A DNA stretch of 64,000 nucleotides from assembly GCA_903918755.1 (NCBI GenBank), contig CAIXFN010000090.1, positions 62,001 through 126,000 of the forward strand. Direction: 5' to 3'. The notes beneath the pieces are model-generated. The model saw only the letters and a list, made by a program, of their open reading frames with translations. It searched no databases and had not been told where the DNA came from. The DNA comes from an uncultured Pedosphaera sp. (GTDB lineage: Bacteria > Verrucomicrobiota > Verrucomicrobiia > Limisphaerales > Pedosphaeraceae). A program made the position numbers and the translations under genes. Of this stretch, positions 14,724 to 23,640 are shown piece after piece (positions within the stretch are counted from its first letter, which is position 1; each line of letters opens with the position of its first letter).

Positions 14724-14756
14724 GTCAGAGTCTCGTCACCTCGACTCCTACAATTA
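14724..14756 (-). repeat. 33-bp repeat containing the stop codon of the upstream gene (copy 1)
   Basis: On the minus strand it begins TAATTGTAGGAGTCGA and ends GAGACTCTGAC. It matches 17018-17050 at 30 of 33 positions. The first three bases are the TAA stop codon of the gene ending at 14754. The GTAGGAG part could also serve as ribosome-binding sequence, though it lies about 40 nt before the next start. Confidence 0.8.
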
Positions 14757-16811
14757 AGGAGTATAGTCGGCGCACATGTCGGCGGGGATGTCCCAGGTGC
14801 AGGCGGTTTCCTGGTTGAGCCAGGTGACCCAGCGGGCGTATTGGCATTGGCCGTTTTGCGGGGGCTCGCATTCGGGGATTTGGTCGCCGCCACTGTTGCG
14901 CGCGGCGACGTAGCCGGTGTAGTTGACGCCGCAGCCAGCAGGGTATGCGGGAGCGCCGGAGGGGACGGCGGTTCTGGCTTCTTCGTAGGGGGGGAAGTAG
15001 GTGCCGGTGGTGCTGGTGCCGTCGTCTTCGATTTGCGGGGTAACACAGGCGCTGCTGGGGACTTGCCACAAGGGGTCTTTCATCCATTGTTCCACCCGGC
15101 CCTGCCAGTAGGCGCTGAGGGTTTCGTCGAGGGTGAAGGTGGGCATGTTGTATTGCACCACGTTGGACCAGGCGTAGGTGACGCTGGCGGGGGCGATGAG
15201 GGCGACGTTGGGGCAGCAGGGGGTGTGGGTGATGCAGGCCTGGCTGGCGGTGAAGGTTTTGAGGCCGCCGGTGGTGGCGCGGGTGGCGGTGCCGCGGGCG
15301 ATGTCGCGGTAGTCATATTGCCATTCTTTCCAGATGAAGTCGCCTTTCATGCCGGTGTCGTTCCATTCGTAGTGGCTGGCGGAGGGGGCCGAGCATGGAT
15401 TGGGGACGCTGCTGAATCGGGGGGTGCCGACGAGGTGGCCGCCGCTGCAGGTGGCGGTGGTTTGGTCGAGGTAGGCGGCGTCGTCCGGACCGCAGGGGCG
15501 GGCGTAGTTGTGGCTGGGTTTGACGAACATGATGGTCTCGGCCCAGATGCATTTGGAGTAGCGGCCGCCGAAGAGGCTGCCGAGGCCGCCGGCGGGGTTG
15601 TAGTTGCACTGCATCCAGGCGCCGGCGCTGCCGTAGGTGCCTTCGAGGTTGTTCATCCATTGGGTGGCACGGGGGCACCAGTCGGGGGCGTATTCGCCGT
15701 AGCCTTCGAGGGTCCAGCCGCCCAGGCCGTCGGGGAGGTAGATGCGGGCGGTGGTGTCCCAATATTTGTCGTAGCCGGCGGGGAGCGGTGCCCCGATGAC
15801 GTTGCCGGTGGCGGGGGTGCCGTAGCGGCCGGCGGTGGTGTCGGAGAAAGTGTCGGCGGGGAGGGAAAACTGGTTGACGTTGAGGTTCTGGACTTCGTCG
15901 TAGGTGAGCAAGGGGGCGAGCCAGCAGTTGCCGTCCTGGCGGAAGGGGTAGATGGCGTCGTCGGAGAGGTCCCAGTTGGCGAAAAGGGCGTCGGTGTCGG
16001 TGTTCCAATCGGCGCTGGTGTAGGGATCGGAAAGGGTGACGCTGACGACGTAGCGGTTGAAGGCGCCGGTGGCGAGGACGGTGACGTCGAAGGCGATATT
16101 GGTGGCGGTGACGGTGCTGCGGTTGACGGTGACGCCGGTGGGGCTGCCGCCGTTGAGGGCGACGGCGACGGAGCCGCCGAGGCCGGCGGGGTCGGACCAG
16201 GTGCCGCAGGCGTAATCGAATTGGGCGGCTTTTTGGGCGCCGTTGTAGCCGGAGCCGGTGTAACCGGAATCGGTTTTGACGGTTTCGGTGACGAGGCCGG
16301 TGAGTTTGCCGACGGTGTAGGTGCGGGCGGTGATCTGGGTGCCGAGGGTGGTGTAGATGCCGCCGGAGTAGGTGCCGTTGGTCTCGGTGGCGGTCATGGT
16401 TTTGGTGCGGTACCGGGTGCCGTTGGGGCTGGCGGTATAGACGCCGCCAGTGCAGTTGTCAAAGCTGGTGTCGGTGAAGCCGAGGCGGCCGGGCCAGAAG
16501 TGGGCGGCGACGAGGTTTTTGAAGCCGAGTTTGCGGCAGGTGAGGAAGTCTTTGGTGGCGGCGGGGGTTTGTACTTGGTAGCAGTTGTCGCCGATGGTGG
16601 TTTGGCCGCCGGTGCAAGCGTGGAGGCCGGGGGGCGCGGTGGGGCTGTAGGTGGGGGCGGAGCCGTCGGCCAATTTGGTGAGGTTTTGCCAGATGGGTTT
16701 GCCGTTGTCGGCGGGGTTGCAGTGCTGGTTGGGGGGGCCGAGCGTGGCGAGGATGGGGGTGGGCCAGCCGCCGCAGGGGGGGCGGTAGGGTGTGCTGAGA
16801 GGGATGGGCAT
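14754..16811 (-). CDS. Phage-operon protein of unknown function, Cys-rich
   Basis: 685 residues starting MPIPLSTPYRPPCGGWPTPILA. It is rich in Thr, Gly, Ala and Pro and has about 20 Cys residues, including TCSGGHLVGTP and CITHTPCCPN, so disulphides or metal binding are possible. No domain is recognised. Its position after fibre and hub-like genes suggests a tail tip, spike or other receptor-binding component, but that is inference. The coding strand is strongly C-rich, which leaves a long open frame on the opposite strand with no sign of being a gene. The start region (ATATGCCCATCCC) is duplicated 67 bp upstream with a repeat in between. The TAA stop lies inside a repeat shared with the neighbouring gene. 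Confidence 0.7.
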   Translation of the reverse strand: MPIPLSTPYRPPCGGWPTPILATLGPPNQHCNPADNGKPIWQNLTKLADGSAPTYSPTAPPGLHACTGGQTTIGDNCYQVQTPAATKDFLTCRKLGFKNLVAAHFWPGRLGFTDTSFDNCTGGVYTASPNGTRYRTKTMTATETNGTYSGGIYTTLGTQITARTYTVGKLTGLVTETVKTDSGYTGSGYNGAQKAAQFDYACGTWSDPAGLGGSVAVALNGGSPTGVTVNRSTVTATNIAFDVTVLATGAFNRYVVSVTLSDPYTSADWNTDTDALFANWDLSDDAIYPFRQDGNCWLAPLLTYDEVQNLNVNQFSLPADTFSDTTAGRYGTPATGNVIGAPLPAGYDKYWDTTARIYLPDGLGGWTLEGYGEYAPDWCPRATQWMNNLEGTYGSAGAWMQCNYNPAGGLGSLFGGRYSKCIWAETIMFVKPSHNYARPCGPDDAAYLDQTTATCSGGHLVGTPRFSSVPNPCSAPSASHYEWNDTGMKGDFIWKEWQYDYRDIARGTATRATTGGLKTFTASQACITHTPCCPNVALIAPASVTYAWSNVVQYNMPTFTLDETLSAYWQGRVEQWMKDPLWQVPSSACVTPQIEDDGTSTTGTYFPPYEEARTAVPSGAPAYPAGCGVNYTGYVAARNSGGDQIPECEPPQNGQCQYARWVTWLNQETACTWDIPADMCADYTP

Positions 16812-16812
16812 A

Positions 16813-16878
16813 TCAAATGGGGGTTGGCCCGTGCTTCGCTAAGAGCTTCGCAGGGCGGCTTCGCCGGGGGATGGGCAT
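16813..16878 (-). pseudogene. Duplicated start fragment plus repeat upstream of the Cys-rich gene (21-codon ORF)
   Basis: A 13-bp direct repeat (ATATGCCCATCCC on the minus strand) occurs at 16868-16880 and again at 16801-16813, where it spans the true start codon of the 685-residue protein. Between the copies lie 54 bp that are mostly the dispersed hairpin repeat. Translation from the upstream copy gives MPIPRRSRPAKLLAKHGPTPI and stops 2 nt before the true start. It looks like a target duplication around an inserted repeat, or a decayed gene start. Translation has not been shown. Confidence 0.6.
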
Positions 16879-17018
16879 ATTGTTACGTTTTGGGGTGTTC
16901 TCGCCCGCCTTCGCTTGCCAGCTACGGCGCGGTGGCTTCGCCAGGGGCGGGCATAATGGGAGGGGAGGCGGACCCGTGCTTCGCTAAGAGCTTCGCAGGG
17001 CGGCTTCGCCGGGGGATG
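16828..17018. repeat. Three copies of the dispersed hairpin repeat between two phage-operon genes
   Basis: Copies at 16828-16873 and 16973-17018 are identical over 46 bp (core GTGCTTCGCTAAGAGCTTCG, then CAGGGCGG and CTTCGCCGGGGG). A diverged copy lies at 16902-16952 (CGCCCGCCTTCGCTTGCCAG, then CTACGGCGC). A further partial start-like ATGCCC on the minus strand precedes the diverged copy. The same family recurs at 19.06, 19.16, 19.22, 22.89, 22.97 and 23.53 kb. Confidence 0.85.
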
Positions 17019-17050
17019 TCAGAGTCTCCTGACGTCGACTCCTACAATTA
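17018..17050 (-). repeat. 33-bp repeat containing the stop codon of the hub-like gene (copy 2)
   Basis: Matches the repeat at 14724-14756 at 30 of 33 positions; differences are in the centre (GTCAGGAG here, GTGACGAG there). Its first three bases on the minus strand are the TAA stop codon of the gene ending at 17048. It runs straight into a copy of the hairpin repeat. Confidence 0.8.
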
Positions 17051-19036
17051 TGAATAGGTTTCGGTGGCGTGCAAAATCACGTTTACCAGGTTGCCGGCGA
17101 CGCAGGCTTGGAGTTTTCGGGGTTGCATGGTTTGGTGGCCGGCGGCGAGGGAGCTGCCGGCGAGGGTGACGATGAGGTGGGGGTCGTGGTTGATGGCGGC
17201 GGTGCTGGCGGGATCGACTTGGGCGACCTGGCTGTGGGTGGGGATGTCCGCACTGCTGTTTTCTTTGTGGCCGGCGTTGCCCTGGTCCACCTGGCCGCCG
17301 TTGGTGGGCAATGCGGTGGTGCGCAGGGCGGGGTTTTGCCAGGTGAAGCGGTAGCGATTCATGCTGAGGAGCCGGATGAAGTCGCCGGGGCTCAGATGGC
17401 CGGGGGGGCCGAAGTTGAGGATGGTGCGGCCGGTCTCGAGCTCGTAGGTGGCGCTTTGGATGAGGGCGTTCATGGTGGCCCAGGCGGTCCGTCCACCAGT
17501 GAGGTTTAAGACTTTTCCCGGCCCGGCTTGGAAGGTGACTTCGGCTTCGACAAGGGTGTGGCTGCCTTCGTACTGAATCGTGGAGAGCGTCCCATGTATG
17601 TACTGCGCCAGGCCAATCGGGACGGGGTCGCCGCTGGTTTCGCTGACGGTGGCTTTGTAGGTGCGGGTTTGGGCATTGGTGGCCGTGAGGTTCACCTGGA
17701 GTTGCTTTCCCGGGCTGGCGCCGCTCCCCGAGCCGGTGAGGTCTTCGACTTTCTGGCTGGTGGTATCGGCGGCGCCGCCGGTGAGTTTGGCGTAGCGCTT
17801 GTACTGGACGGTGGCCAGCATTTTGACGGCTTGCTGGATGACGGCGCTGCCATCGGGGTTGTACATCCAGGCGGCAAGGGCGGGGCCGGGCTGGAGGTAG
17901 TTGGGGTAGGTGCCGAGGGGAGTGATGGTGGCGTCGCTGGCATCTTTGAAGGTGGGGTCGCTGATGATGATGGAGCCGGGGTCAATGTGGGGATCGGACA
18001 GGGCGGGGTGGAACTTTTTCCAGTAGGCGAGCTTGGTGGCCTGGGAGTCGCCCGGGGCGCTGATGGCGGCAGTGGTGATGTCGGCCTGGGTGGTGGTGAC
18101 TTTGCCGCCCTGGAGGTCGATGGTTTGGACGAGGCCGAAGGGGATAGTTTCGGCGACGCCGCTGGTGGGGTATTTGTCGGTGACGATGTTGAGGAAGGCC
18201 TGGCCGTTGATTTCGTTGAGGATTTTGTAGCGGAGGCAGACCAAGGGGACCTGGAGATCTTCCCGGGTGGTGATGTCGAGGGCTTCGTGGTCGGTGCCGT
18301 TGGCGATGGCGAGGCTGACGCCGGACAGGTTGGCGCGGGCCTTGCAATGGAAGGTGGGGGTGCTGGTGGTGTAGTCGAACCAGGTGACGGCGTCGGGGGC
18401 CCAACGGAGGATCTGCTTGATGGCCTCGGCGCAGGTCATATCTTTGATTTGGTAGATGGGGGCGTCGGCGGTGGGGGTGCCGCCGGTGTCGGCGAGGGCG
18501 GCGGTGTGGCTGAGGCTGGTGCTGGGGAGTTCGGAGCCGGCGACGAGGTTGATGCCGGCGGTATTGGCGTAGGTGATGATTTCGGTGAGTTGCTGGCCGA
18601 CGGTGTATTTGGCGCCGGTGATGGATTGAAGGAGGAAGAGGTCGCTGGTGAGGACGGTGCTGGTGCTACTGGGGGTGCTGGTGCTGTTGATGGTGGTGGT
18701 TTGCTGGAAGACGGTGTTTTCGAGTTGCCACCAGGGGCCTTTGAATTGGTAGATGCGGTTTTCTTCGCGGGGGTTGCCGCGGGCGGGGCTGAGGTCGCGC
18801 GTGCCTTGGAAGGCTTGGGTGCCGCCGGACCAACTGGTGCCGCTGCCGGTGCGATTGCGGTAGAGGGTGATGGCGGCGCCATAGGGGAAGATGGGGTCGG
18901 AGTCGATGGGGTAGCCGGGGGCGGTGAGGGTGAGGGTGTCGGCGGCCTGGCTGAAGAATTCGAGGACGGGTTGGGCGAGGCCCCAGGCGGCGAGCGTTTG
19001 TTCGGTGGTGGAGTATTTGAGTGTCCAGGAGCTCAT
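17048..19036 (-). CDS. Phage-operon protein, possible tail hub/baseplate component
   Basis: 662 residues starting MSSWTLKYSTTEQTLAAWGL. Segments such as TEIITYANTAGINLVAGSEL, AEAIKQILRWAPDAVTWFDY and ...TFHCKARANL look like the central part of phage late-control/tail-hub proteins that read out a coordinate-like beta domain, but the match is only by general resemblance. No enzymatic motif is seen. The start is preceded by a short ORF at 19033-19140 that duplicates its first 13 codons and whose TGA overlaps this ATG (ATGA). The TAA stop lies inside the 33-bp repeat. Gene order (fibre, Pro-rich protein, this, Cys-rich protein) agrees with a tail-tip role. Confidence 0.6.
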   Translation of the reverse strand: MSSWTLKYSTTEQTLAAWGLAQPVLEFFSQAADTLTLTAPGYPIDSDPIFPYGAAITLYRNRTGSGTSWSGGTQAFQGTRDLSPARGNPREENRIYQFKGPWWQLENTVFQQTTTINSTSTPSSTSTVLTSDLFLLQSITGAKYTVGQQLTEIITYANTAGINLVAGSELPSTSLSHTAALADTGGTPTADAPIYQIKDMTCAEAIKQILRWAPDAVTWFDYTTSTPTFHCKARANLSGVSLAIANGTDHEALDITTREDLQVPLVCLRYKILNEINGQAFLNIVTDKYPTSGVAETIPFGLVQTIDLQGGKVTTTQADITTAAISAPGDSQATKLAYWKKFHPALSDPHIDPGSIIISDPTFKDASDATITPLGTYPNYLQPGPALAAWMYNPDGSAVIQQAVKMLATVQYKRYAKLTGGAADTTSQKVEDLTGSGSGASPGKQLQVNLTATNAQTRTYKATVSETSGDPVPIGLAQYIHGTLSTIQYEGSHTLVEAEVTFQAGPGKVLNLTGGRTAWATMNALIQSATYELETGRTILNFGPPGHLSPGDFIRLLSMNRYRFTWQNPALRTTALPTNGGQVDQGNAGHKENSSADIPTHSQVAQVDPASTAAINHDPHLIVTLAGSSLAAGHQTMQPRKLQACVAGNLVNVILHATETYS

Positions 19037-19140
19037 AGTGATGCAATGGAGGCGTTGACCCGTGCTTCGCTAAGAGCTTCGCAGGGCGGCTTCGCCGGGG
19101 TTTTTTCGGTGCTGGCGTATTTGAGGGTCCAGGAGGACAT
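19033..19140 (-). pseudogene. Duplicated 5' end of the hub-like gene fused to a hairpin repeat (35-codon ORF)
   Basis: From ATG at 19140 the frame reads MSSWTLKYASTEKT and then PAKPPCEALSEARVNASIASL, stopping at TGA 19033-19035, which overlaps the ATG of the 662-residue gene (ATGA). The first 41 nt match the true gene start with 6 differences, while the rest is the hairpin repeat at 19058-19100. It is either a remnant of a disrupted gene start or a small upstream ORF that could couple translation to the downstream gene. Confidence 0.7.
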
Positions 19141-19312
19141 AAAAAGGGGAGGTTAGACCCTGCGTCGCCGGGAGGCTATGCAGGGCAGGCAGGATTAAGG
19201 CAAGGATGGGGAGGCTGACCCGTGCTTCGCTGAGAGCTTCGCAGGGCGGCTTCGCCGGGGCGGGCTTCGCCGGAGGTTTTTCGGGTTTATCCTGTAAATC
19301 ATGTTAATCCGG
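19058..19312. repeat. Cluster of dispersed repeats upstream of the hub-like gene
   Basis: Hairpin repeat copies lie at 19058-19100 and 19218-19260. A variant at 19157-19190 (CCCTGCGTCGCC with GGCTATGCAGGG) forms a 12-bp stem with 2 mismatches. At 19287-19312 there is a different element, ATCCTGTAAATCATGTTAAT followed by CC, a type of short quasi-periodic repeat often scattered in environmental bacterial genomes. No gene other than the short ORF at 19033-19140 is seen in the 19037-19320 interval. Confidence 0.8.
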
Positions 19313-19320
19313 TCGGGTTT

Positions 19321-19950
19321 TTACCGGTTGGAGGAGGACATGCTGGCGAGTTGTTTTTCGAGTTTGTCGAGGCGGGTGGTTTGGGTGCGGTAGAGCTGGA
19401 TGAGGGTTTCGTGGAGGTGGGCGCTCCGCTGGAGCAATTCGGCGGCCTCCCCCAGGGCCCGCAGGTGCGCGTCCAAATTCGTGGCGGCCGCGGTGCTGAG
19501 CTGCTGGCTGACGTGCGCCGCGTCGGCACCACTGGCTTCCGCCAGGCGCAGGGGGCCGCCGCCCCCGGACTGCTGCTCCTCCTCCGGGAGCGTCGACCCG
19601 GGCGCGGCCGCGGGAATCACCCGGGGCCCGGTCGGCGGGAGAGGATGGCGTTCGTCGCCCACCCACGGCGCCGTTTTCGGTACGGGCTCCGCGGCGGGTG
19701 AAAGGGGCAAACCCGCCGCGTCAGGTCGGGAACGCGAGCGGCCTGCCCCAATCCCGGGTGGCGGGGCGGGCGGGGCAACGGGTTCCGTCTCCGGCGCGGC
19801 CTTGGGGTCGGTCTCCGCGTGGTCCGGACGCGGCATTTCCCCGCCGCTGACGGGCAGGTCGGCCGGAGCTTCCGCCGGGACTTCCGAAGGGGTGGGCAAC
19901 TCAGGGAGGGGTGAGTTCATGGCAGGTATTGAGCCCGACCGGTCCGGCAA
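19321..19950 (-). CDS. Pro-rich phage-operon protein with C-terminal coiled coil
   Basis: 209 residues. The first about 140 are low-complexity, rich in Pro, Ala and Glu (PSEVPAEAPADLPVSGGEMP, ETEPVAPPAPPPG). The last about 60 look helical with heptad-like spacing (LDAHLRALGEAAELLQRSAH, LHETLIQLYRTQTTRLDKLE), ending QLASMSSSNR. No family is recognised. Its start overlaps the end of the fibre gene by 34 bp, so the two are probably co-translated. A structural linker or a chaperone-like role next to the fibre is possible. The low-complexity part makes the start hard to verify. Confidence 0.6.
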   Translation of the reverse strand: MPDRSGSIPAMNSPLPELPTPSEVPAEAPADLPVSGGEMPRPDHAETDPKAAPETEPVAPPAPPPGIGAGRSRSRPDAAGLPLSPAAEPVPKTAPWVGDERHPLPPTGPRVIPAAAPGSTLPEEEQQSGGGGPLRLAEASGADAAHVSQQLSTAAATNLDAHLRALGEAAELLQRSAHLHETLIQLYRTQTTRLDKLEKQLASMSSSNR

Positions 19951-22900
19951 TTGATATCGCCTGACTGGCTGGTACTCGTGATGGTTACGCTCAAGGGTTG
20001 CGGACTGGCCGTGCTGCCGGTATCGGTGGCCCGCACGACGTTTTGGACGACGCCCCCCAATTCGGACCAGGTATAGAGGTCCACGACGCTGGCGGAGATG
20101 CGCACAAGGGAGAGGTGGATTTCCCAGGCGATCCCGGTCGTGGTGGCGGAGGTCATGATGGTGAGGCTGGTGGTGCCATAATAGACCTTCCAGGTGAGCG
20201 TCCGGCCCACGCCGGTATTGTTGTTGGTGCCGTGGAGCCAGTAATCGATTGCGTTGCCGTTGGCCGCCAGCAAATTGGCGGGGAGCGTGTTCGTGCTCAC
20301 GGCGGTTTCACTGGTGCCGCTGTTGGCCACCATGCCATCGCGCCAGAGCGTGCGAGGCAGGTTGGGGGAATTGACATCCGGCAGGTAATTGGTGAGCGCG
20401 CCCGCGTTGAGCGCGGGGAGGGCGCCCCCGGCGGCGAGCAGGGCGGGGTTAAGGGAGGAATTTGTAAACAACAGATTCCCGCCATTGGTCACTCCCGCGG
20501 CGCTTAACGTGGTCCCGCTCACGACCAGGCCGCCGGCCAGCGTCACATTGGTCTGCATTCCGCCGGCCCCTTGCATAACCAACGCCGTGGTCCCGGCGTC
20601 CGGATTCGCCACATGGCCGCCGGAATTGGTGAAGCCGGCGGCGATGATCCCGCCACCGGTCACCACCATGCCCGCCTGGAAGAGGCTGCTGCCGGTCGTG
20701 GGGTTGAACGCCAGGCTGCCATCCAAGGAACCGCCCCCGCTGACCGCGGGATTGGTCAGGATCACCCCGCTTTTGACGTAAACCCCGCCGGAATTGGAAC
20801 CAAATTGATTGGCATTGAACGCCCCCAGATACGAACCGCCACCGCCGGCAATCGTCAGGGTGGTGCCGCTTAGGGATGCGCCGGAGAGGGTTACATTCGT
20901 GGCATGGCCATCCGCACCCACCATCACGAGACTCGTGTTGGGAACATCCGGACCGATTGTAAAATGCCCAGTATTCGTTATGCCGTTCCAGGAACCTCCT
21001 GCACTGGCCAATACTGGCGCAAGCAGATTCAGCGTGGTGCCATGAGCGTTGGTAATGCCCTGCTTCTGGCTGATAGTTCCATCACCCAAGATCTGAAAAC
21101 TGTCATAAGGAGCGTGATCATAGATTGAAACAACGCCTTGAAAATATGCACTGTCCAGCGAATACCGGTGCCCATCCGGTTGACTGTTCACGCTCATCGA
21201 CCACGAGTTCGACCCGCTTGCCAATTCCAATTTTCCGCTGTTGGCTGCACCGCCAACACCAACCGAGCCGTCCGCACTAACAAATGTTGTGGGAGACGGG
21301 GCCGCATTGCTTACAATAATGACCGGAGGGCTGTACGAAAATCCACTGCTGGAGTACGTGCCTTGTGCGCTCTCAACACTATACAGGCTCGTCGAGCTGA
21401 TCACTTGCGCCACAGTGTATCCGGAATTATCCGCGGCGACGTTAAATCTATAACCGGGAAGCCAGCCCGCAAACGCGCCCGGGCTGCCTGTCCAAACAGG
21501 ACTTCCGTATGCCCCACTGATGGTGCCAGTGCTGGTGAAAGCCCCTACCGGGACGGCGCTTAGTGTGCCACGCAGGTTCAAACCCGAATTGGCTGACAGC
21601 GGACTATAAAAGCTGATGAGCGAGCCATGGGCGTTGGTATATCCGTTCGGAACGCTCAATTCACCATTCGGAAGCAATTCGAATGAATTGTAGGGTGCCT
21701 CATAAATCATGAAAATTGGGTTTTGCCAGCTGCTATCGATTTCCAAGGCAGGACCAAATCCTCGAGCCATTACCAGGCTATAAAAAGTATTCGTCCCGTT
21801 GTCCCAGCCAATCTTGCCAGAATTGGCGAAGTTTAATTGTCCGCTGACAAATAGGGACCCATCGTTGTCGATGTTGAGCGCCGGATGTGGAGGACTCACA
21901 ATTTGCAGATCAGACACGCTCAACGCATTGGGGAAAATCTGGTAAGGTGCATTTGTGTAACTCGTGTAAATGTTGTTGGCCCCGATCAATTGAAGGGTGT
22001 GGAAATGGGTAGCATCGACAATATCGGTAATTCGGTATTGGTCATTGGTGATTAGAATATTGTAACCCGGCCACCAGCCAGTAGTGGTTCCGCCGCCCGT
22101 AATTGTCCACGTCTTGGAATTGGCGGAGCCAGACAAACCGCCGATACCAGCGTAAACATTTGTAGGAGTGATCGTAAATTGCACCGCCACGGTATTGCTT
22201 GCAAAACCCCCATTGCGCAAGACCATCGCGCCCGCGAGTCCATTGGTGGCGGCGTTGGCGGCATTCGTGGCCTGCGCCGGGCCAATGAAACCATTGGTCA
22301 GTTGCGCCGCGTTGACGCTCAGGGTGGTCAAGGTCCCGGCACCATTGGTGCTGGCCACCAGGTTGGTCCCGGCCGCGACGCTGAGGCCCGAGCCACTCCC
22401 GCCGCTGCCGCCCGGCAGGGCGCCGAAGTAGGCGTTCGTGCCATCGGTGAGATAACCCTGCCCGGTCGTCCCCGGCCAGTTCGTGGGCAGGGGCGCAAAT
22501 CGTGCATCCGCGACACTGGCCGGATAGGCCGCCAAGCCGGCGGGGAAAGTGTTCGTGGCGGGGGTCACCAGCAAATCGGCGGCCTGGAGGGTGGTGTTCG
22601 TCGCCGGGACCAGGATGGTGAAGGTCTGGCTCACGCCCTGGATGGTGCAGTCGTAAGGTCCCGGCAGGAGGTTGGTGGAGCCACAACCATTCGCCAGGTC
22701 CAGGAGGATATAGGGGCTCGCGAAGAGGGTGTGATTGGTGGCGAAAAGTTTACTCACGCTGGGGACGATCCGGATGGGGCGGTTGAGCAGCTGGCCGGTG
22801 ACGGTGGCGGTGCAGAATTGGACGGTGGTGGCGTTGGTGGCCCCGGAGGCGGGCTCAGGGACCGCCCACAGAAAAAGAATGGCCGCAACCCATGCTACGC

Positions 22901-23057
22901 TCAGAAGCTTCGCAGGGCGGGAAGGCGCAAAAATAAAAGTCCTGATTTTGAACAGAAGGTCGCGGAGCCCGTGCTTCGCTCGGAAGCTACGCAGGGCGAA
23001 TTTGCGGGGGACGCAAATTCGGATGCGCGGAGAAAGGGGTTTGCAAGAGGGATGCAT
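19917..23057 (-). CDS. Phage tail fibre-like protein with repeat-derived N-terminus
   Basis: 1046 residues. After an unusual N-terminus (residues 1-72) comes ATNATTVQFCTATVTGQLLN, then a Ser/Gly/Asn/Thr-rich beta-repeat body typical of fibres (AATNGLAGAMVLRNGGFASN, SGTTLTIAGGGGSYLGAFNA). There is an internal duplication: GWWPGYNILITNDQYRITDI matches GWLPGYRFNVAADNSGYTVA, and APYNSFELLPNGELS matches APYDSFQILGDGTIS, each followed by TNAHG. The N-terminal codons are encoded by two copies of the hairpin repeat and one other repeat, with no in-frame ATG or GTG after them before the conserved body. The hydrophobic stretch LLSVAWVAAILFLWAVPEPASG resembles a signal peptide, odd for a fibre. Likely receptor or surface binding. 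The start lies 8 nt after the stop of the upstream gene. Confidence 0.75.
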   Translation of the reverse strand: MHPSCKPLSPRIRICVPRKFALRSFRAKHGLRDLLFKIRTFIFAPSRPAKLLSVAWVAAILFLWAVPEPASGATNATTVQFCTATVTGQLLNRPIRIVPSVSKLFATNHTLFASPYILLDLANGCGSTNLLPGPYDCTIQGVSQTFTILVPATNTTLQAADLLVTPATNTFPAGLAAYPASVADARFAPLPTNWPGTTGQGYLTDGTNAYFGALPGGSGGSGSGLSVAAGTNLVASTNGAGTLTTLSVNAAQLTNGFIGPAQATNAANAATNGLAGAMVLRNGGFASNTVAVQFTITPTNVYAGIGGLSGSANSKTWTITGGGTTTGWWPGYNILITNDQYRITDIVDATHFHTLQLIGANNIYTSYTNAPYQIFPNALSVSDLQIVSPPHPALNIDNDGSLFVSGQLNFANSGKIGWDNGTNTFYSLVMARGFGPALEIDSSWQNPIFMIYEAPYNSFELLPNGELSVPNGYTNAHGSLISFYSPLSANSGLNLRGTLSAVPVGAFTSTGTISGAYGSPVWTGSPGAFAGWLPGYRFNVAADNSGYTVAQVISSTSLYSVESAQGTYSSSGFSYSPPVIIVSNAAPSPTTFVSADGSVGVGGAANSGKLELASGSNSWSMSVNSQPDGHRYSLDSAYFQGVVSIYDHAPYDSFQILGDGTISQKQGITNAHGTTLNLLAPVLASAGGSWNGITNTGHFTIGPDVPNTSLVMVGADGHATNVTLSGASLSGTTLTIAGGGGSYLGAFNANQFGSNSGGVYVKSGVILTNPAVSGGGSLDGSLAFNPTTGSSLFQAGMVVTGGGIIAAGFTNSGGHVANPDAGTTALVMQGAGGMQTNVTLAGGLVVSGTTLSAAGVTNGGNLLFTNSSLNPALLAAGGALPALNAGALTNYLPDVNSPNLPRTLWRDGMVANSGTSETAVSTNTLPANLLAANGNAIDYWLHGTNNNTGVGRTLTWKVYYGTTSLTIMTSATTTGIAWEIHLSLVRISASVVDLYTWSELGGVVQNVVRATDTGSTASPQPLSVTITSTSQSGDINCRTGRAQYLP
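22888..23000. repeat. Two hairpin repeats flanking another repeat inside the fibre gene 5' end
   Basis: Hairpin-family copies at 22888-22920 and 22968-23000 (each with GCTTCGC or GCTACGC and CGCAGGGCG) flank TTGAACAGAAGGTCGCGG at 22949-22966. The latter element also occurs at 23468-23500 and, slightly changed, at 27629-27666. In the fibre reading frame these encode FALRSFRAKHG, LLFKIR and RPAKLLSVAW. Confidence 0.8.
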
Positions 23058-23065
23058 AGTGGTTG

Positions 23066-23458
23066 CTAGGTGGTCGTGATGAGGCCGCCGGTCAGGCGGT
23101 AGCTGGTTTTGATGGTGCAGCCCAGCTGGCTGCTTTGGCTTTTGGCGGTGGCGTTCCGGAGGTAACGGAGCGTCGTGCCGTCGGCCTCGGTGATGAGGAT
23201 GTCGGCATTGCCCTGCAGGGCGACGTCGTGCTGCAGGAGAAAGTCTTCGGCCAGTTGCGGCGTGCCGAAGCCACGAGTGACGGCGAAGGTGATTTCGGTC
23301 CGGCGATTGCCGCGGTCCAGTATGGCGACGGCCGGGGCACGGAAGAGGGGCACTTCCTGGGTGACGGCTTCGCCGTTGAGGCGCAGGTTGGTCATGGGCA
23401 CGTTGGCGGGACTGTCGGCCAGGGTGACCGGGGTGGCGGCGTTGAAGACGATTTTCAT
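23066..23458 (-). CDS. Small phage tail protein of unknown function
   Basis: 130 residues starting MKIVFNAATPVTLADSPANV. It is beta-rich by sequence (LRYLRNATAKSQSSQLGCTI, RRTEITFAVTRGFGTPQLAE). It follows the tail tube gene and precedes the fibre, where siphophages carry tail assembly or tail-tip genes. The ADILITEADGTTLRYLRNA segment suggests a compact beta-sandwich. It is too short for a tape measure. Function unassigned; position is the main evidence. Confidence 0.65.
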   Translation of the reverse strand: MKIVFNAATPVTLADSPANVPMTNLRLNGEAVTQEVPLFRAPAVAILDRGNRRTEITFAVTRGFGTPQLAEDFLLQHDVALQGNADILITEADGTTLRYLRNATAKSQSSQLGCTIKTSYRLTGGLITTT

Positions 23459-23465
23459 CAGCTGA

Positions 23466-23640
23466 GGTTTTTGAACAGAAGGTCGCGAAGAGCGCGAAGG
23501 GGGGAACCCTGAGGGATCAGAGCCTCCTCACCCATGCTTCGCCCGAGGCTACGCAGGGCAGGCTGTCGGCTGCTACAAGGTTTTGAGCGCATCGCGTTGG
23601 TGCTCTTTGCGGCCTTTGCGTGCTTCTGTAAAAATCAGGA
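23466..23640. repeat. Junction between tail tube and next gene filled with three repeats
   Basis: The interval holds TTGAACAGAAGGTCGCGAAG at 23471-23490 (continuing AGCGCGAAG), a hairpin-family copy at 23529-23562 (CATGCTTCGCCCGAGGCTAC then GCAGGG), and, in opposite orientation, a related element at 23601-23640 (CTCTTTGCGGCCTTTGCGTG then CTTCTGT). No gene is seen. Confidence 0.8.

Follow-up and report, generated by a model that had tools for sequence, protein, structure and literature searches.

A candidate scar of local tandem duplication: repeated gene starts beside REP-like hairpins in a putative Mu-like prophage

At two gene junctions of a putative prophage from an uncultured Pedosphaera sp., the start of a gene occurs a second time upstream of that gene, with a hairpin repeat lying between the copies. 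These stray start copies are probably, though we say so with some reserve, the scar of a local tandem duplication of units made up of hairpin, tail and gene start, and not a designed regulator. The window, by which we mean the whole 64,000-nt stretch of DNA that was analysed, belongs to a genome of 7.19 Mb in 118 contigs. Because genes at 26-31 kb match a Mu-type portal (Pfam E 3.6e-55), a head maturation protease (PHROGs E 1.2e-14) and a major head protein (E 2e-6), we read the region as a Mu-like prophage. Of the two genes concerned, one encodes a 662-aa product that had been called 'hub-like' in a preliminary description; this label could not be confirmed, the product matching no Pfam or PHROGs family at E 0.001 and no PDB sequence, and its predicted structure being unusable (mean pLDDT 30). 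One of six aligned homologues of the product gave a PHROGs match at E 0.079. A scan for promoters and terminators returned 4 promoter-like sequences against 1.6 expected and 19 terminator-like sequences against 10.0 expected.

The gene for the 662-aa product is an ORF on the minus strand (17048..19036) with which homologues align from near residue 1; the starts of other prophage genes are those given by the ORF finder. Upstream of it on the same strand, an ORF of 108 nt (19140-19033; 35 codons from the ATG at 19140, translation MSSWTLKYASTEKTPAKPPCEALSEARVNASIASL*) opens with a copy of the gene start (S', 19099..19140) that is identical at 35 of 42 positions to the gene's own start copy (S, 18995-19036), which is to say 7 differences in 42 nt or 6 in 41. 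From this start copy the ORF passes through the 39-nt core of a hairpin repeat (copy B, 19097-19059, with a covariance model match at 19058-19089) that separates S' from S, and then through a 22-nt tail (19037..19058), to stop at a TGA (19035-19033) that overlaps the ATG of the 662-aa gene (19036-19034) as ATGA. This is the layout that the preliminary description had given, with its 41 nt and 6 differences, its hairpin repeat and its TGA overlapping the true ATG, and the minus-strand sequence confirms it. Under ungapped scoring (match +1, mismatch -2) the best upstream copy of the gene start scores 24, against a maximum of 12 in 300 simulated upstream regions (Markov-3), and when 49 ORFs of the window that do not overlap are scored alike, the 662-aa gene comes first at 24, followed by 17 and 13, with all others at 9 or below. 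The duplicated start at 19.1 kb is thus beyond chance and non-random. The scores of 17 and 13 belong to upstream direct copies at the start regions of two ORFs on the plus strand, near 194 and 54613, whose starts are ORF-finder calls. Further out from S', a diverged hairpin (R', 19157..19188, minus strand; a weak model match with E 0.0037 and 6.3e-5) has a tail that runs straight into S', and another hairpin repeat (copy D, 19219..19257, minus strand) lies beyond it.

The start of the neighbouring 685-aa gene (ORF 14754..16811, minus strand) is duplicated at 16.8 kb, all features again being on the minus strand. Here ATATGCCCATCCC, from the start region of the gene, is repeated exactly over 13 nt (16868..16880, score 13), so that the duplication is real; counted from the ATG onward only, the copy scores 11, which is inside the range of the simulations made for the 662-aa gene. 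The copy opens a 21-codon ORF (16813..16878) that runs across hairpin repeat copy A (16828..16866). The preliminary description saw in this junction the same design as at 19.1 kb, and a real, hairpin-linked duplication is indeed common to both, but the TGA of the 21-codon ORF lies one base before the ATG of the 685-aa gene, adjacent to it and non-overlapping. A diverged hairpin-like unit (R'', 16904..16943), read by eye and not reported by the covariance model, precedes the start copy at 16878, and beyond it is a third, weaker and diverged start copy, ATGCCCGCCCC (16944..16954), which was absent from the earlier account and which opens an ORF at 16954 that stops after 10 codons, short of the 685-aa gene. 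Hairpin repeat copy C (16973..17011) follows. The duplication at 19.1 kb, which had been described as longer and older, is indeed the longer and the more diverged of the two (42 nt with 7 differences as against an exact 13 nt). The two cases had also been called independent, which they are not, because near-identical repeats, with 0 differences in the 39-nt core, are present at both junctions; the suggestion of a mechanism rather than chance survives in the form of a non-chance duplication tied to the hairpin repeat at two junctions, and a mutational process common to both is likely.

The 42-nt form of the repeat has four copies in the genome by exact pattern, all within this prophage, and the 39-nt cores of copies A, B and C are identical while D differs at 1 position. 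The wider family is much larger. A pattern search for the central hairpin with at most 2 mismatches gave 19 matches in this genome, and with at most 1 mismatch 16, whereas the remaining 57 of the 58 genomes searched had none; a covariance model of 32 hairpin positions gave at least 77 matches in this genome at E<=0.01, and none among the matches listed in 8 relatives (E 0.01, 150 candidates scored per genome). The exact repeat pattern had no match in the viral contig and genome contig collections, nor did Rfam at gathering threshold match anything within the window. The hairpin is predicted to fold, but no more stably than shuffled sequences (z -0.66 as RNA, -0.40 as DNA). Eight of the at least 77 hairpins fall within 6.7 kb of the prophage tail region (16827-23561), a region picked post hoc, where 0.06 would be expected from the rest of the genome; all eight are on the transcribed strand, in the direction of transcription, six of them between called genes and two inside the called N-terminus of an ORF at 19917-23057. 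Elsewhere in the host genome the hairpin is often found inside other dispersed phrases. A 108-nt host tandem duplication (G000:C82:158975-159114) contains the hairpin family together with a 64-nt partner sequence, and two hairpin matches 107 nt apart (G000:C81:99377-99515) are perhaps another tandem duplication.

The family resembles the REP sequences and REPINs of bacterial genomes (PMC3733652, PMC3116915), which are likewise short imperfect palindromes with many copies in one genome and none in near relatives; the hairpin here, with at least 77 matches, has the imperfect palindrome, the size of about 20-60 nt and the high copy number of a REP. GTAG-tagged REP families include Verrucomicrobia, and some RAYT genes lack REP flanks (PMC3733652). 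GTAG- and CGTC-tagged REPs carry their tag at one end, however, whereas the hairpin ends here are untagged with one exception: GTAG stands at the 5' edge of 0 of 77 listed hairpins and at the 3' edge of 1, being internal in 48, and CGTC stands at either edge of none of the 77. REPs and REPINs also flank a cognate RAYT gene, whereas the neighbourhoods (2.5-2.8 kb) of the 5 Y1 transposase (Y1_Tnp) genes in this genome contain no hairpin at up to 2 substitutions. We accordingly rejected a RAYT link for the family, none of the five neighbourhoods containing the hairpin; two things point the other way, the RAYT genes without REP flanks just mentioned and a relative (G002, L049) that has a similar hairpin, with 1 substitution, at a distance of about 1.4 kb from one of its Y1 genes. 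Since the family resembles REPs but does not pass the end-tag test or the transposase-neighbour test in the form applied here, we call it REP-like and not REP.

Short tandem duplications arise by slippage or template switching at hairpins, and it is a process of this kind that we infer at the two junctions. Genome-specific, REP-like hairpins would have accumulated in gene junctions of the tail region of the Mu-like prophage, and at two of these junctions a unit of hairpin, short tail and first codons of the next gene would have been duplicated in tandem. Slippage of a strand or a switch of template at the hairpins is the probable route, with microhomology of a few bases, a C-run, at the joint of start and repeat. 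The copy nearest the gene would have stayed the working start, the outer copies would be decaying relics, and the short ORFs that they open would be by-products and no selected regulator. Such duplications elsewhere likewise consist of head-to-tail units of hairpin and neighbouring DNA with a few bases shared at the joint; those proposed here differ in ending inside gene starts, which yields extra start codons, and in having repeats that look younger than the start copies. Among the titles and opening lines of abstracts listed from one open-access library, we saw no account of gene starts duplicated next to repeats of this kind.

What favours tandem duplication of a hairpin-tail-start unit is the presence of a hairpin-like unit before every start copy. 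There are five such copies, two for the 662-aa gene and three for the 685-aa gene with the working starts included, and in front of each, within 16-25 nt, stand a hairpin-like unit and a tail; three of these units are strong model matches, R' is a weak one and R'' was read by eye only. Of 10 pairs of tails compared, 6 resemble each other more than shuffled sequences do (C-D 0/1000; B-C 0.003; B-D and R'-D 0.005; A-B 0.015; A-R' 0.018, uncorrected) and the other 4 do not significantly so (A-C 0.43; B-R' 0.25; A-D 0.12; C-R' 0.06). The further tandem duplication with a hairpin in the host genome, of period 108 (G000:C82), also speaks for this origin. Against its simplest version, the repeat cores differ at 0-1 of 39 positions and the start copies at 7 of 42 (Fisher 0.012 for 0/39, 0.058 for 1/39), and since the repeats are less diverged than the start copies, tandem duplication needs the repeats to have been homogenised, replaced or conserved afterwards. 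Against the notion of by-products, the crowding of eight hairpins into 6.7 kb, all in transcription sense, could reflect function.

A second origin to be considered is target-site duplication, in which the repeat would be a mobile element whose insertion a little way into each gene start copied 13 and 42 nt of target. The S'-repeat-S geometry fits such an insertion, the copies directly abut the repeat, and of the four exact 42-nt copies, all in this prophage, A and B abut duplications. The duplicated lengths are unequal, however (13 and 42), and the hairpin-like units before the outer copies are not predicted by this model. Insertion alone, moreover, need not duplicate its target: among the loci examined for one host phrase, GGACACTTAA-TCCAGTTTC, we counted 30 distinct empty sites and 7 filled by a clean hairpin insert of 31-32 nt with no target duplication, which counts for tandem duplication with the qualification that these inserts are a diverged hairpin variant and not the 42-nt subtype. 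Across the family, with flanks of 80 nt, a flanking direct copy scoring at least 11 accompanies 9 of the 77 listed hairpins and 44 of 734 mismatched pairs (Fisher p 0.08), leaving 68 of the 77 listed hairpins without one; this excess favours target-site duplication and counts against tandem duplication, and is too slight to speak for target duplication as a general property of the hairpin. Two of the nine are the 19.1-kb and 16.8-kb junctions, and the other seven, judged by eye, are dispersed phrases, the repeat core itself or the 108-nt tandem duplication at G000:C82. We regard target-site duplication as unlikely.

Comparison with relatives bears on the age of the event and on what preceded it. 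A search of 97 genomes for the 662-aa gene and its homologues was positive in 8, one of them the genome of the window; 2 viral contigs have homologues too, and none was confirmed in the genome_contigs collection. The homologue in a genome of the same genus (G001) is 72% identical in protein. We compared eight homologous loci at the gene start (in G001, G002, G004, G017, two in G006, and L015 and L016, the start in L016 being picked by eye), with loci in G079 and G085 left out of this comparison. None has a start copy within 300 nt upstream, where the best scores are 6-10 as against 24 here, and a scan of 10 loci of relatives with the hairpin model, a single G001 contig supplying two of these loci, found 0 matches; upstream of the gene in L016 there is one isolated GCGAAGC word. 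In G001 the upstream gene ends 43 nt before the ATGAGC start, where the gap in the present genome is 284 nt. For the 685-aa gene, a search of 7 genomes found homologues in 1, with three matches in G001, and the ancestral state is read from a single junction (G001 C226), which has no start copy (upstream score 7). At this same locus (L029, G001:C226, 625-771, minus strand) a different short ORF (MSRNGKPEEI...) precedes the 685-aa homologue and overlaps its start; it has, by eye, no counterpart in the window.

The preliminary description had proposed aligning these junctions in relatives lacking the repeat, and had held that its reading would be refuted if the ancestor had one start only and unrelated DNA upstream of it. 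As far as the relatives show, the eight loci for the 662-aa gene and the one G001 junction for its neighbour, a single start with unrelated upstream DNA is the state found. The junctions offer an example of how small hairpin repeats and local duplication can reshape gene junctions, with same-genus DNA that lacks both copy and repeat available for comparison. Between the two start copies of the 662-aa gene there are 7 differences in 42, fewer than separate them from G001 (11 and 12), and the event therefore probably took place after the split from G001; polarised by this one same-genus genome, the outer copy has 4 derived changes and the gene copy 3. The ATGA, by contrast with the duplication, is inherited and the older of the two, because it opens the 662-aa gene in 7 of the 9 loci compared, that of the window among them, and because a long upstream ORF in G004 and in one of the G006 loci has its own TGA overlapping the ATGA of the gene; in three more loci the stop lies within 2 nt.

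It is in the light of this that a regulatory role must be judged, in which a translated short ORF would hand ribosomes to the main gene through the overlap of stop and start (termination-reinitiation). Termination-reinitiation at ATGA overlaps (PMC6728339, PMC10666635) also has the stop of an upstream ORF overlapping the next start by 4 nt, and published tests show that reinitiation requires overlaps or very short gaps (PMC10666635); the upstream gene here ends 284 nt away, and a leader ORF ending at the gene might in principle help reinitiation. The stop is at the main ATG or one base from it in both cases, and the upstream gene overlaps as ATGA in the two homologous loci just named. Unlike such a leader, however, the ORF here consists of the gene's own start copy and repeat DNA and is no conserved gene, and the ATGA was already present before the duplication. 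Nor is the short ORF found in the eight homologous loci, of which same-genus G001 is the closest. The repeat is translated as PAKPPCEALSEARV in one short ORF and as RRSRPAKLLAKHGP in the other, these being different frames, so that the two have no peptide in common, and the ORF from 16954 stops after its 10 codons. With ATGA and repeat held fixed, a random-tail model gives a chance of about 0.16 for a short ORF to end at the ATGA, and of 0.035 for a stop as near to the ATG of the 685-aa gene. Twelve starts of the cluster, with both outer copies among them, were checked for a Shine-Dalgarno-like motif and none has one, so that initiation signals cannot rank the two ATGs. Sequestering of the start by RNA structure was rejected, the junction folds being unremarkable (z -1.36 and -0.56), and these ordinary folds likewise tell against a regulator. 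The preliminary description's short-ORF control is thus not supported, given the inherited ATGA, the eight loci with neither start copy nor hairpin and the differing frames of the repeat; a selected regulator is, in our estimation, quite unlikely, and the short ORF is most likely a by-product.

Homeologous recombination, by which the outer start would be left over from the form that the gene has in a related phage, could account for start copies more diverged (7 of 42) than the repeats, for one codon with a two-base Ser-to-Ser change and for changes absent from G001 in both copies, but it is very unlikely given that the copies resemble the same-genus gene less than they resemble one another and that the sole relatives among viral contigs are 29-30% identical in protein.

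One may go further and imagine that hairpins drive a recurrent multiplication of start codons at prophage junctions, and that the inner short ORFs were co-opted to restore stop/start coupling once repeats had pushed the upstream gene 284 nt away. We consider this highly improbable; if true, it would provide a simple mutational route to new leader ORFs. Small hairpin repeats together with local duplication can give rise to spurious short ORFs and make start calls doubtful. Two hairpin repeats at 22888-22999 lie inside the called N-terminus of the 1046-aa ORF at 19917-23057, and its translation probably begins by reading through the repeats, with the true start possibly further in.
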